A DNA stretch of 64,000 nt from Sulfurovum sp. (lineage in GTDB: Bacteria > Campylobacterota > Campylobacteria > Campylobacterales > Sulfurovaceae). The DNA lies in NCBI GenBank assembly GCA_027049035.1, contig JALTVI010000018.1, positions 62,001 through 126,000 of the forward strand. The letters are read 5' to 3'. The first letter of the stretch is position 1. Each line of letters begins with the position of its first letter. Shown piece by piece: positions 1,050 to 61,182 of the stretch. The position numbers and the translations under genes were made by a program. The notes below the pieces were generated by a model that was not told the DNA's origin, did not search any database, and was given only the letters and a program-made list of their open reading frames with translations.

Positions 1050-1125
1050 GGTCGCGTAGCTCAGTTGGTAGAGCACTACCTTGACATGGTAGTGGTCGTT
1101 GGTTCAAGTCCAATCGTGGCCACCA
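1050..1125 (+). tRNA. tRNA-Val (anticodon GAC)
   Basis: A complete cloverleaf can be folded by hand: acceptor GGTCGCG with CGTGGCC (two G-U pairs), a D-arm beginning GTAGCTCAGTTGG, anticodon stem CTACC/GGTAG with loop TTGACAT (anticodon GAC, reading GUC/GUU valine), T-arm GTTGG-TTCAAGT-CCAAT, discriminator A and an encoded CCA. Its length is 76 nt. The AT-rich sequence TATATAAT about 25 bases upstream is a plausible -10 element. Confidence 0.95.
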
Positions 1126-1203
1126 TATATCTTCTTCGATACAATTCATTTTTTCAAAAATCATAGTATAATACTCCCATTACGTTTACGAAAGAGAGAA
1201 GTT

Positions 1204-1617
1204 ATGGATAAATCGATGATGGTATTCATTGCCGTGGGTATAGGCTTCTTCTATCTGGTGACCACCTATGTGGGAGACATACAGAAAGAGGATGACCGTC
1301 TGCAGAATACGGGGTATGAACAGGAACACAAGTTCGACCAGTACTATACCGAGGACAGTATGGGAGACAAGATACTCGATGTGACGCTTGCTGATCCGCA
1401 GACGCAGGTGGCGGCCTGGAACAAGAGCCCGCTCAAAGAGGAGTATCTTGACCTCTTTCCTGACTTCGATACAATGCGTACGTTCGTCAAGAACCGTGTA
1501 AGAGGCAAGGAACTTATCGACAAACTTAACAGGCAGATACAGGAAACCGAAGACAAGTTTTTCTCCGGAGCACTCGATGCAGAAGGCGCCAAGAGGGCGC
1601 TGAAACAGCTTAAATAG
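1204..1617 (+). CDS. Membrane-anchored protein of unknown function
   Basis: This 137-residue protein has one N-terminal membrane segment (about residues 5-23, MVFIAVGIGFFYLVTTYVG) and a charged soluble part that ends in a predicted helical region (RQIQETEDKFFSGALDAEGAKRAL). The ATG at 1204 is preferred over upstream in-frame starts because GAGAGAAG lies just upstream. I do not recognise a family. It converges on the OmpA-like lipoprotein gene with only three bases between the stops. Confidence 0.75.
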   Translation: MDKSMMVFIAVGIGFFYLVTTYVGDIQKEDDRLQNTGYEQEHKFDQYYTEDSMGDKILDVTLADPQTQVAAWNKSPLKEEYLDLFPDFDTMRTFVKNRVRGKELIDKLNRQIQETEDKFFSGALDAEGAKRALKQLK

Positions 1618-20242: not shown

Positions 20243-20272
20243 ATTATAGTATGATTGTTAACCAAATGTCAA
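20243..20272 (-). promoter_or_regulatory. Consensus sigma-70 promoter of the outer-membrane protein gene
   Basis: On the minus strand TTGACA (20272-20267) and TATAAT (20248-20243) are separated by 18 bases, with the ATG about 36 bases downstream of the -10. Both hexamers are perfect. Confidence 0.8.
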
Positions 20273-38499: not shown

Positions 38500-38669
38500 T
38501 TGGGAAGATGGGTGGATGGGTGGATGGGGGGGAATGGAAACGCGAATTCATTCGCGTCAAAAAGAAGCCCCGGTGTTTCGACAATGTCCTGGGCGGGAAT
38601 GAATTCCCGCTTCCTGAACCCTGAACCCTGAATCCCGAAGCCTGAGCACTTAACACATAGCACGTAGCA
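38500..38669. repeat. Heptamer and palindrome block after the nucleotidyltransferase gene
   Basis: Parts in order are GATGGGTG words, a GGAAACGCGAATTCATTCGCG hairpin resembling that at 17.85 kb, a CGGGAATGAATTCCCG palindrome, three CCTGAAC-type heptamers and GTAGCAC words. No gene is visible. Confidence 0.75.
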
Positions 38670-39425
38670 CTATTTTTTCGCTTTACGAAAAAACTGCGGC
38701 ACTTTCGAAGCATTCTTCATAAAGAGACTTCCCACATGTCCCACGCCGTTGTTTTTCATCGCACGCAGGTCTTCCCTGCTTTTCTGCACAAGGTTTTTCA
38801 GGCTTTTGTTGCTTGCGCCGCCCACGCGCATCTTGACCAGCACTTCAGGGATGTAGTGGGTGCTTATCTTCTCTCTTCCCAGAAAACGCAGAACAGTGTC
38901 GTAATCGGCTGCTATCTTGAAACCGGTATCGAATGCCCCGTACTTTTCATATACTTCCCGTTTCACGTAAAAAGTCGGATGCGGCGGCATCCATCCGCGT
39001 TTGAGTTTGCCCGGTGTAAAGGCACCGCTTTTCCAGAAGCGCACCACATTGCCGGTATCCTCTTTACTCACATAGGTCAGGTCACCGTAGATGCTGTCGA
39101 CATGCCTCTTTTTAAAGGCATCGGCTATTTTGGCAATGACATGTTCATCTTCAAACAGATCATCCGAATGCAAAAATCCCACAACATCACCTGTCGCCAG
39201 TGCCACCCCTTTGTTCAATCCGTCATAAATGCCTTTGTCGGGCTCGGAGACGAACGTGTCAATTCTGTCCGCATACCGCTGTATGACTTCTACCGTCCCG
39301 TCCGTCGAAGCGCCGTCGACGACGATGTACTCTATATTCTCATACGTTTGAGACAGGACAGATTCTATCGCTTCGGCAATGGTCTCTTTGTTATTGTATA
39401 CGGAGGTGATGATCGATATTTTCAT
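38670..39425 (-). CDS. Glycosyltransferase family 2
   Basis: The 251-residue protein has a GT-A fold start (MKISIITSVYNNKETIAEAI), VDGASTDGT and the LHSDD metal-binding segment. It is close in style to WcaE-like enzymes that add a sugar to a lipid-linked glycan. It is the last cluster gene on the minus strand before the nucleotidyltransferase gene. CCAATCAC words lie between it and the neighbouring acetyltransferase gene. Confidence 0.88.
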   Translation of the reverse strand: MKISIITSVYNNKETIAEAIESVLSQTYENIEYIVVDGASTDGTVEVIQRYADRIDTFVSEPDKGIYDGLNKGVALATGDVVGFLHSDDLFEDEHVIAKIADAFKKRHVDSIYGDLTYVSKEDTGNVVRFWKSGAFTPGKLKRGWMPPHPTFYVKREVYEKYGAFDTGFKIAADYDTVLRFLGREKISTHYIPEVLVKMRVGGASNKSLKNLVQKSREDLRAMKNNGVGHVGSLFMKNASKVPQFFRKAKK

Positions 39426-39465
39426 TTGCTGTATTTTTTCCTAATCACGAATTACCAATCACCAA

Positions 39466-40017
39466 TCACGACTCAAAAGATCGTTCTCTTTTGAGTGTTG
39501 CCGGATTCCCCTGATAGATGCCGTAGGCATCAAGATCTTGCGTAGCGACAGAGCCGACGGCAAGCACAGAATGGCTGTGACAGGTCACACCCGGACAGAC
39601 AGTAGCTTTCGCCCCTATCCATACACCATCTTCCAGTACAATTTTCCCAAGCACAAGATCAAAAGATTCTTTTTTGTAATCATGGCTGCCGGTAAGCAGG
39701 TAAGCTCCCTGGGAGAGGACAACATTGCTGCCAAGAGTCACTTCTGCCAGGTTGTCTATCCAAACCCCTTCGCCTAGCCAGCAGTCATCTCCGATCTCAA
39801 GGAACCAGGGGTATTTGATATTCACGTTTGGCTTTATCACTACCCCACGACCTGCCTTCGCACCAAAAAGTATCAACAGCTTTGTTTTGAAAGAAGAGGG
39901 AAACGGCAGCATGGTTTTAAAGAAAAACATATTGGTAAAGTACCAAAGTGTTTTTTTCATGGTACTTCCAGGTTTATACCAATTATTGTTATAGTAATTG
40001 AGCTTGACTTCCTTCAT
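39466..40017 (-). CDS. WcaF-like O-acetyltransferase
   Basis: The 183-residue protein has a left-handed beta-helix built of hexapeptides (VVIKPNVNIKYPWFLEIGDD, CWLGEGVWIDNLAEVTLGSN, VWIGAKATVCPGVT) and matches the colanic-acid WcaF type. It probably acetylates a glycan or sugar precursor with acetyl-CoA. The last codon and stop (TCG TGA) run into a GATTGGTGATTGGT array. Confidence 0.85.
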   Translation of the reverse strand: MKEVKLNYYNNNWYKPGSTMKKTLWYFTNMFFFKTMLPFPSSFKTKLLILFGAKAGRGVVIKPNVNIKYPWFLEIGDDCWLGEGVWIDNLAEVTLGSNVVLSQGAYLLTGSHDYKKESFDLVLGKIVLEDGVWIGAKATVCPGVTCHSHSVLAVGSVATQDLDAYGIYQGNPATLKRERSFES

Positions 40018-40020
40018 GAC

Positions 40021-40176
40021 TTATTTGTTTTTCTGTCTTTTTGGAAGTGTCGTATGAAGCCAGTCAATGTGTTCCTGCAAATCTTCGCGAATGGGATGGT
40101 TCATTGCATCGAGGACAAAATTGATACCCTCTCGTCTCAAATAAAAATCGCCATCGACTAATATTGCTGTTTTCAT
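40021..40176 (-). pseudogene. Truncated NYN/LabA-type nuclease gene
   Basis: The 51 residues begin MKTAILVDGDFYLRR, the usual start of NYN-domain (PIN-like) ribonucleases with the first catalytic Asp. The remaining ~150 residues of such proteins are missing and the frame ends KRQKNK*. GGAG lies seven bases upstream of the ATG. Its leader is the structured RNA described next. It may be a remnant, or a retained small peptide. Confidence 0.6.
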
Positions 40177-40186
40177 AAAAAACTCC

Positions 40187-40252
40187 AAAAAAAAAGCCCA
40201 TGGGCTCGGCTTCACCTGCATTTCCTAGTGAGCGTACTGCCATGGGCGTTAT
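40187..40252 (-). ncRNA. Candidate structured small RNA with intrinsic terminator
   Basis: On the minus strand a consensus promoter leads into about 66 nt. The RNA begins near ACGCCCATGGCAG and ends GAGCCCATGGGC followed by nine U. GCCCATGG (40247-40240) pairs with CCATGGGC (40203-40196) around a 36-nt internal region; GCTCAC and GTGA-GC inside can pair further. It could be a free small RNA or an attenuator for the NYN gene. Confidence 0.6.
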
Positions 40253-40258
40253 AAAATT

Positions 40259-40287
40259 ATTATAATAGTTTTTTTGTAAAATGTCAA
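40259..40287 (-). promoter_or_regulatory. Perfect sigma-70 promoter
   Basis: On the minus strand TTGACA (40287-40282), 17 bases and TATAAT (40264-40259) are present. Both hexamers and the spacing are ideal. Transcription would start near 40252. Confidence 0.85.
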
Positions 40288-40309
40288 ATTTTATTACACA
40301 GATTCAACA

Positions 40310-40409
40310 TTGACCAACGGGAATTCCCTTGGGTGCAACATTCAACATTTAACATTAAGCATTAAAACTCTTGCTCTTCAATTCAACATTAAGCATTCAA
40401 AATTTAACA
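40310..40409. repeat. AT-rich heptamer-type array beside a glycosyltransferase gene
   Basis: Words such as TTCAACA, TTAACAT, TAAGCAT and TTCAAAA recur in a 7-base rhythm up to the glycosyltransferase stop codon. No gene is seen in 40253-40409 besides the promoter and RNA described. Confidence 0.7.
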
Positions 40410-41351
40410 TTAAAACTCTATCCCATATTCATTTCTCAATATCTCTTCGATCGCTTTTTTCTTCTGCTCCTTCGTAACACTTAACCCGTAACCCGTAGCA
40501 CGATCTACCTTGTAGTAGATCTCATTGATCTTCGCATCGACAAGGAACCTGTACCATCCCCCTTGAAGGAAATGCCAGACAAGGCCGGGTTTGCCGTCGA
40601 GGAAGCCGAGTTTGAAGAAGTAGCGCCAGGTGAAGTAGAGAACGGGGCGGAGAAATAGCGGCAGAGACGCATAGCGTATCTTCAGCCAGCGTTTCCGCTG
40701 TTCCTGTGTTCCCCAGAGGTTTGGTTCTACTTCGTCGTACTTTTTAAAACCGTAAATGATGTTGAGTATGTCCACCGCTTCGCGCGTGGCATAGTTGTTG
40801 TGCTTCTGCGTCCACCATGTGAGGTTGTTCTTGTTGTCATCGACGATGTCGTTTTCAAACTGCACGGTTGTTCCGGAACTGAGCTTTATGTGTTCATCCA
40901 TCCAGCGTTGTTCCATCTGTCCTTTGTCGTACTTCCATATGCGTAAAAGCCAAGTCGGGTAATACCCACCATGTTTTATCCATCTATCCATAAAGTGAAC
41001 ACGACGTTTTATGTAAACTCCCGATACATCATCACCAAGCGTTTCCATCTTGGTATTAATCTCCTCGGCCAGTTCAGGAAGTACGTACTCGTCAGCATCC
41101 ATTTTCATAACCCATTCTGTCTCAATGGAGCAGTTGTCCAATCCCCATTGAAACTGTATAGCATGATTACCCGGCCATTTATTTTGATAGACCTTCGCAC
41201 CTAAAGACTCTGCTATCTCTGCTGTTTTGTCTGTTGAATAACTATCGACAATGAAGATCTCTTTTGTAAAAGTGAGTAAAGACTTTATACATCTTTCGAT
41301 GTGTAGTTCTTCGTTGTAAGTTAGTATGAGGACTGATATGTTTTTTTTCAT
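40410..41351 (-). CDS. Glycosyltransferase family 2 with repeat-coded insertion
   Basis: The 313-residue protein has VLILTYNEELHIERCI, VDSYSTDKT and MDADEYV motifs of GT2 enzymes, and a C-terminal region rich in aromatic and basic residues. Residues ~280-290 (RATGYGLSVT) are encoded by GTAACCCGTAGCAC-type words. The stop (TTT TAA) merges with the downstream array. It overlaps the upstream GT4 gene by one base. Confidence 0.87.
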   Translation of the reverse strand: MKKNISVLILTYNEELHIERCIKSLLTFTKEIFIVDSYSTDKTAEIAESLGAKVYQNKWPGNHAIQFQWGLDNCSIETEWVMKMDADEYVLPELAEEINTKMETLGDDVSGVYIKRRVHFMDRWIKHGGYYPTWLLRIWKYDKGQMEQRWMDEHIKLSSGTTVQFENDIVDDNKNNLTWWTQKHNNYATREAVDILNIIYGFKKYDEVEPNLWGTQEQRKRWLKIRYASLPLFLRPVLYFTWRYFFKLGFLDGKPGLVWHFLQGGWYRFLVDAKINEIYYKVDRATGYGLSVTKEQKKKAIEEILRNEYGIEF

Positions 41352-61108: not shown

Positions 61109-61182
61109 AAAATATCCTTTTTTGTTCCTCTATTATACTTCAAAAGAATTATGTTGTCAATGTTGTAAGCCGTGATTCGTAA

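Follow-up and report, generated by a model that had tools for sequence, protein, structure and literature searches.

A full set of expression signals precedes a truncated NYN gene

Why does a gene of only 51 codons stand behind transcription signals that are better than almost any others around it? An earlier note on the 64-kb stretch of Sulfurovum DNA analysed here (the window) raised this question, describing a promoter, a hairpin RNA, nine U, a ribosome-binding site and an NYN-like start in series. All of these elements are present, on the minus strand. The sigma-70 promoter TTGACA-17-TATAAT (40259..40287) matches the consensus at 12/12 positions, with the -35 box TTGACA at 40287-40282 and the -10 box TATAAT at 40264-40259, separated by a 17-nt spacer. 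If transcription starts ~7 nt past the -10 box, the predicted small RNA extends from about 40252 to 40187, its ends being deduced from these signals, and this agrees with the length of ~66 nt given in the note. The RNA contains the motif recognized by our covariance model R1 (40196..40247, minus strand), which we call the NYN-associated RNA motif and which consists of the 8-bp stem P1, the internal loop CAGUAC/CGAGC, the stem P2 and an apical loop. The 5' arm of P1, GCCCAUGG (40247-40240), pairs with the 3' arm CCAUGGGC (40203-40196), and together with the following nine-U tract (40187..40195) P1 forms an intrinsic terminator; a T-rich 3' side is general in the relatives. Next come the ribosome-binding site GGAG (40183..40186) and the NYN gene remnant of 51 codons (40021..40176), with its ATG at 40176 and its stop codon at 40023-40021. 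The element is flanked by genes for a glycosyltransferase (41351-40410) and an acetyltransferase (40017-39466), both on the minus strand.

The window contains 3 perfect sigma-70 promoters, compared with 0.05 expected from shuffled sequences, and hence the promoter of the RNA is not a chance match, though it is not unique; the high rank that the note gave to these signals is borne out. The other two perfect TTGACA-N-TATAAT promoters are at 20243-20272 and 61132-61160, both on the minus strand. Upstream of the promoter, the region 40300-40420 is AT-rich with repeated ATTCAACATT/CATTAAGCATT words, and similar word repeats are found near 38600-38680 and 39440-39480.

When folded as a single sequence, the window RNA was weakly better than its shuffles (z -1.55). 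It matched R1 with 55.3 bits (E=1.6e-13), as the sole match in the window and in the whole genome, and 15/15 P1/P2 pairs are intact. The main proof of the predicted structure is thus comparative and lies in the match to R1, not in the single-sequence fold. Rfam 15, searched at the gathering score, had no family for the window element or for the element in 12 relatives; the note, too, had been unable to assign a known RNA family. At relaxed thresholds an RprA-like terminator match appeared below the cut-off, which we judged to be due to chance. Elsewhere in the window, the Rfam family HPnc0260 (antisense RNA) matched at 1087-1220 (minus strand) with 71 bits, overlapping tRNA-Val at 1050-1122 on the opposite (plus) strand.

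The RNA belongs to a family with covarying stems and a conserved internal loop

We fetched 80 full-length NYN loci from public genomes and compared their upstream regions, which have a ~50-nt hairpin in common. Alignment A2 comprises 34 sequences, and R1 was used for the searches. P1 is paired in 98-99% of cells (99.3% in A2). Changes on both sides occur in A2 at 9/11 P1 pairs, the remaining two pairs never varying, and at 7/7 P2 pairs. Double-change cells numbered 108 in A2, whereas shuffles had 35 and slid controls no more than 53; the wider set had 199, compared with 64 in shuffles. The covariance search suggested in the earlier note hence returned many homologues with compensatory changes, ahead of NYN genes, where the note would have counted their absence against its reading. 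Several unpaired bases are nearly invariant: the 5' strand of the internal loop has GUA, its 3' strand (C)GA, and the apical loop AU. The internal loop may mimic the bulged-G motif (AGUA/GAA) of the ribosomal sarcin-ricin loop, which we take as a lead only.

In the HMP-PP (thiS) riboswitch, too, a conserved RNA forms part of the terminator upstream of a gene (PMC6478431), and the NYN-associated RNA shares with it a compact conserved loop within the terminator. A riboswitch of this kind, which would put the NYN gene under the control of a small molecule, is nevertheless very improbable here. The nine top covarying column pairs are all within P1/P2, and the tenth (columns 9-124) is non-canonical and lies next to P1; in the family alignment covariation was confined to P1 and P2 and no alternative fold was conserved. 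The lack of a conserved alternative fold and the control of just one gene, a nuclease and not a pathway, disfavour a riboswitch, and orphan copies of the RNA (see below) have no gene to regulate.

At least five T follow P1 within ten bases in 78/80 members of the family. A 12/12 promoter match lies within 70 nt upstream of the RNA in 7/80 members, and the mean best match of all 80 is 9.2/12, compared with 8.0/12 in shuffles. The T tracts and the promoter scores above those of shuffles indicate that the order promoter, RNA, terminator and gene is general. In Lachnospiraceae loci, including L054, L065, L066, L067 and L073, an inverted repeat GTGTAAC-N-GTTACAC is found ~15-35 nt upstream of P1, between the -10 box and the RNA, and is possibly an operator or a 5' hairpin. 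Two loci (L032 and L045) have RNA versions with an extra hairpin inside P2, of ~104 nt overall.

The RNA is coupled to NYN genes in at least eight phyla

R1 identified the RNA in the right place and on the right strand upstream of 67/80 full-length NYN genes. As 32 of the 80 loci supplied seeds, the independent figure is 35 of the 48 non-seed loci. Of the NYN loci of phages, 57/79 have the RNA. We also searched with the RNA first. In genomes chosen for their NYN genes, the RNA was present in 33/34 (E<=0.001), as a single copy except for one extra orphan duplicate. Among 299 genomes of one Firmicutes family, all 11 RNA sites were followed by an NYN gene or a broken one, the damaged genes being truncated (L332), interrupted by a stop codon (L339) or broken up (L333).

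The RNA family is present in at least eight phyla, and in addition in prophages and plasmids. Judged by record titles, many of which denote metagenome bins, strong R1 matches come from Campylobacterota, gamma-, beta- and alphaproteobacteria, Geobacteraceae, Acidobacteria, Planctomycetes, Verrucomicrobia, Synergistaceae and Firmicutes. With strict filters, the canonical form was detected among 200 genomes of the window's phylum in the window's genome only, and it is hence rare in this phylum. Campylobacter and Helicobacter have divergent forms of the RNA; several NYN relatives there and in lambda-like phages have terminator hairpins without the GUA/CGA core or with an altered one. For at least one NYN locus (L064) we saw no RNA. 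In three Campylobacterota relatives (L115-L117) the RNA ahead of the NYN gene is longer and branched and its core is different; 2/3 of these NYN genes contain stop codons.

The encoded protein appears to be a nuclease of the NYN type. Full-length homologues (L033, L034 and L032) scored above the curated cut-off for Pfam NYN (PF01936), and full-length proteins match PHROG 5783. The AlphaFold model (pLDDT 92) gave no confident match in a plain Foldseek search against the PDB, and VIA-align placed the NYN RNase domain of MARF1 (Z 16.4) and VPA0982 (Z 16.3) well above all others. Asp 8, 57, 148, 154, 173 and 175 are invariant across 42 sequences. Profile, predicted fold and acidic site all point to an NYN domain in the full-length homologues. 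PADLOC returned a weak match of the C-terminal part only to a generic LabA-like NYN profile (E about 5e-6).

The strict coupling and the conserved internal loop would also suit a cofactor, and an NYN gene is seldom found without some hairpin RNA. The RNA could therefore be a structural or guide part of an active RNA-NYN ribonucleoprotein, required for activity or targeting and not for inhibition. We consider this improbable: there is no guide-length variable region, with the short P2 loop as the exception, the terminator should make the RNA exceed the protein, and the persistence of orphan RNAs is harder to account for.

The NYN gene was lost repeatedly while the RNA was retained

Alignment with the full-length NYN gene of locus L033 (221 aa), which comes from a different genus in the same family, confirmed that the gene behind the window RNA is a truncated NYN gene of 51 codons, as the note had proposed. 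The first ~15 codons are fused to the last ~37 at an AGACG direct repeat (40128..40137, minus strand), and codons ~16-184 are gone. The remnant retains ~51/221 residues, reaches no Pfam cut-off and has only the first (Asp 8) of the six invariant Asp residues. The same RNA stands ahead of the L033 gene and shows a compensatory change in its P1 (GCCCAAGG/CCUUGGGC, compared with GCCCAUGG/CCAUGGGC in the window).

A nucleotide search of 100 relatives yielded one true relative, the sister copy L009 in genome G002; the other listed matches look like AT-rich chance matches. The L009 gene stops short after ~7 codons, and at a further locus (L029) the ends of the deletion are at a GTGATTT repeat. Because the breakpoints in the window, L029 and L009 differ, the NYN gene must have been broken at least three times near the window lineage with the RNA kept. 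More widely, the NYN gene was lost and the RNA retained in the window, L029, L332, L200 and L273, with different breakpoints where these were mapped. The RNA of L009 is decaying, with 2 P1 and 2 P2 pairs broken, which suggests that it has no lasting use there in the absence of the gene.

Phages carry the RNA with and without an NYN gene

We searched viral contigs by two pattern searches and the covariance model and counted matches of at least 40 bits (n=20). Ten RNA copies were accompanied by an NYN gene, two by an NYN remnant (L200 and L273) and six by neither; the remaining two were clipped by a contig or locus edge. NYN is thus absent at 6/18 decidable copies (L179, L152, L211, L194, L272 and L280). 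In L211 (3146-3528) the orphan RNA lies between capsid/protease and portal/terminase genes, and the gene directly behind it encodes a phage protein that contains the C-terminal domain of RNA polymerase alpha. The orphan RNA of L179 has a gene for a superinfection-exclusion lipoprotein on one side and an integrase gene on the other. In L152 (9219-10178) the neighbours of the orphan RNA are a Cro/CI-type regulator and, in the place of NYN, a RelA/SpoT-domain gene, a possible swap of partners.

Phage modules lie downstream of Cro/CI-type regulators and are followed by integrases or recombinases. The NYN gene of the lambda-like phage ev099 comes directly after the repressor gene, behind a terminator hairpin of different sequence, and most of this stretch is present in 73 E. 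coli genomes. The module is also carried by conjugative plasmids of Campylobacter and Aeromonas and by the Moraxella phage Mcat4; the RNA copies of these three scored 21-41 bits with R1. Like phage-defence genes, the modules are located on plasmids and in the lysogeny regions of temperate phages; the position in lysogeny regions fits defence and also other functions in the lysogen.

The orphan copies bear on the main rival explanation, a cis-only attenuator, in which the RNA is no more than a 5' leader and read-through into the NYN gene is set by binding or cleavage of the hairpin, either by the NYN protein itself (autoregulation) or by another factor. P1 is indeed the terminator, and in the window it begins no more than ~5 nt from where the transcript is predicted to start. 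The RNA almost always stands in cis to NYN, and it decayed in L009 after loss of the gene. On the other hand, structurally intact RNA units persist in several phages without any NYN gene, and the near-invariant unpaired bases and strong promoters exceed what a terminator needs. Overall, we regard attenuation in cis alone as unlikely. The earlier note had left open a small RNA or an attenuator with a truncated gene. An unannotated structured RNA and a truncated NYN gene are both there, and an RNA that acts in trans as the partner of the protein suits the data better than a plain attenuator, because the RNA also exists without the gene. What the note missed is that the RNA travels together with the NYN gene as a single mobile module, across many phyla and in phages.

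Discussion

An RNA-neutralised nuclease is the simplest explanation for the intact active site, the coupling to the RNA, the mobile carriers, the loss of the gene with survival of the RNA and the orphan copies in phages. On balance, we favour a mobile RNA-nuclease module similar to type III toxin-antitoxin systems, in which the RNA neutralises the NYN nuclease. Transcription from the strong promoter would stop at the P1 hairpin, the RNA's own terminator, to give a ~60-nt RNA, and now and then read-through past P1 would yield the mRNA for the NYN-domain ribonuclease. Being made ahead of the terminator, the RNA is presumably in excess over the nuclease. It would bind the nuclease via the internal loop (GUA/CGA) and the apical AU and keep it inactive, as ToxI does with ToxN; phage infection would stop RNA synthesis and free the nuclease. 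Binding, inhibition, toxicity and the role in defence are what we infer in this reading. Phage orphan RNAs without NYN are to be expected if the antitoxin acts in trans. Counting against an antitoxin are the presence of a single RNA unit where tandem repeats would be typical of type III systems, the decaying RNA of L009, the hairpins whose core is missing or altered and the L064 locus with NYN and no RNA.

For the window itself, the best explanation is a relic of the module that has lost its toxin, with RNA, promoter and terminator intact. It is rather doubtful, though compatible with the module, that the RNA is kept here because it is useful in itself, for instance in protecting the cell from incoming NYN modules (anti-addiction), or that the promoter serves the downstream polysaccharide genes. 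The 15 intact P1/P2 pairs and the neighbouring genes on the same strand would be in line with this, but the sister copy is decaying and a recent deletion accounts equally well for an intact RNA.

VapC and other PIN-domain toxins belong to a related nuclease fold class and have conserved acidic residues. VapC is neutralised by a protein, whereas we propose an RNA for the NYN module. Type III toxin-antitoxin systems (ToxIN, CptIN, TenpIN) have one promoter, an antitoxin RNA, an intrinsic terminator and then an endoribonuclease gene (PMC5086642), and were found on plasmids, chromosomes and a prophage (PMC5086642, PMC3475682). The NYN module shares this order. However, it has one motif copy per locus instead of a tandem-repeat antitoxin, an NYN/PIN-like nuclease instead of a toxin of the ToxN, CptN or TenpN families, and a terminator stem that belongs to the conserved RNA itself, as one hairpin with an internal loop. 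Lacking tandem repeats and a ToxN-type toxin, it is not classed as type III. The stand-alone RNAs of phages recall the pseudo-ToxI of phage PhiTE, an antitoxin-like RNA carried by the phage (PMC3475682). The same layout ahead of a protein gene is seen in AbiF/RCd22, a prophage-borne toxic protein that is encoded behind its own promoter, small RNA and terminator and is neutralised by the RNA (PMC12373285). AbiF/RCd22 differs from the NYN module in having an Abi_2/AbiD/F protein and two abiF RNA motifs with a separate terminator hairpin.

The RNA family is apparently undescribed and is not in Rfam. A literature search among open-access journal papers found nothing that links NYN proteins to RNA antitoxins, to RNA motifs or to type III systems; one hit (PMC12557735) was unrelated, 'NYN' there being a codon pattern. 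We consider it conceivable, at slightly less than even confidence, that the modules represent a bacteria-wide, undescribed class of RNA-neutralised NYN ribonucleases apart from ToxIN- and AbiF-like systems, in which one hairpin with a loop-E-like internal loop serves as both antitoxin and terminator and the stand-alone RNAs of phages act in counter-defence.

These nucleases are currently annotated just as 'NYN domain-containing protein' or hypothetical, and the partner RNA provides a handle on their function and is itself a new RNA family, with members in at least eight phyla. The orphan copies in phages make counter-defence by RNA mimicry directly testable beyond ToxIN. If the proposed neutralisation is true, RNA-based control of nucleases would extend to the PIN/NYN fold.
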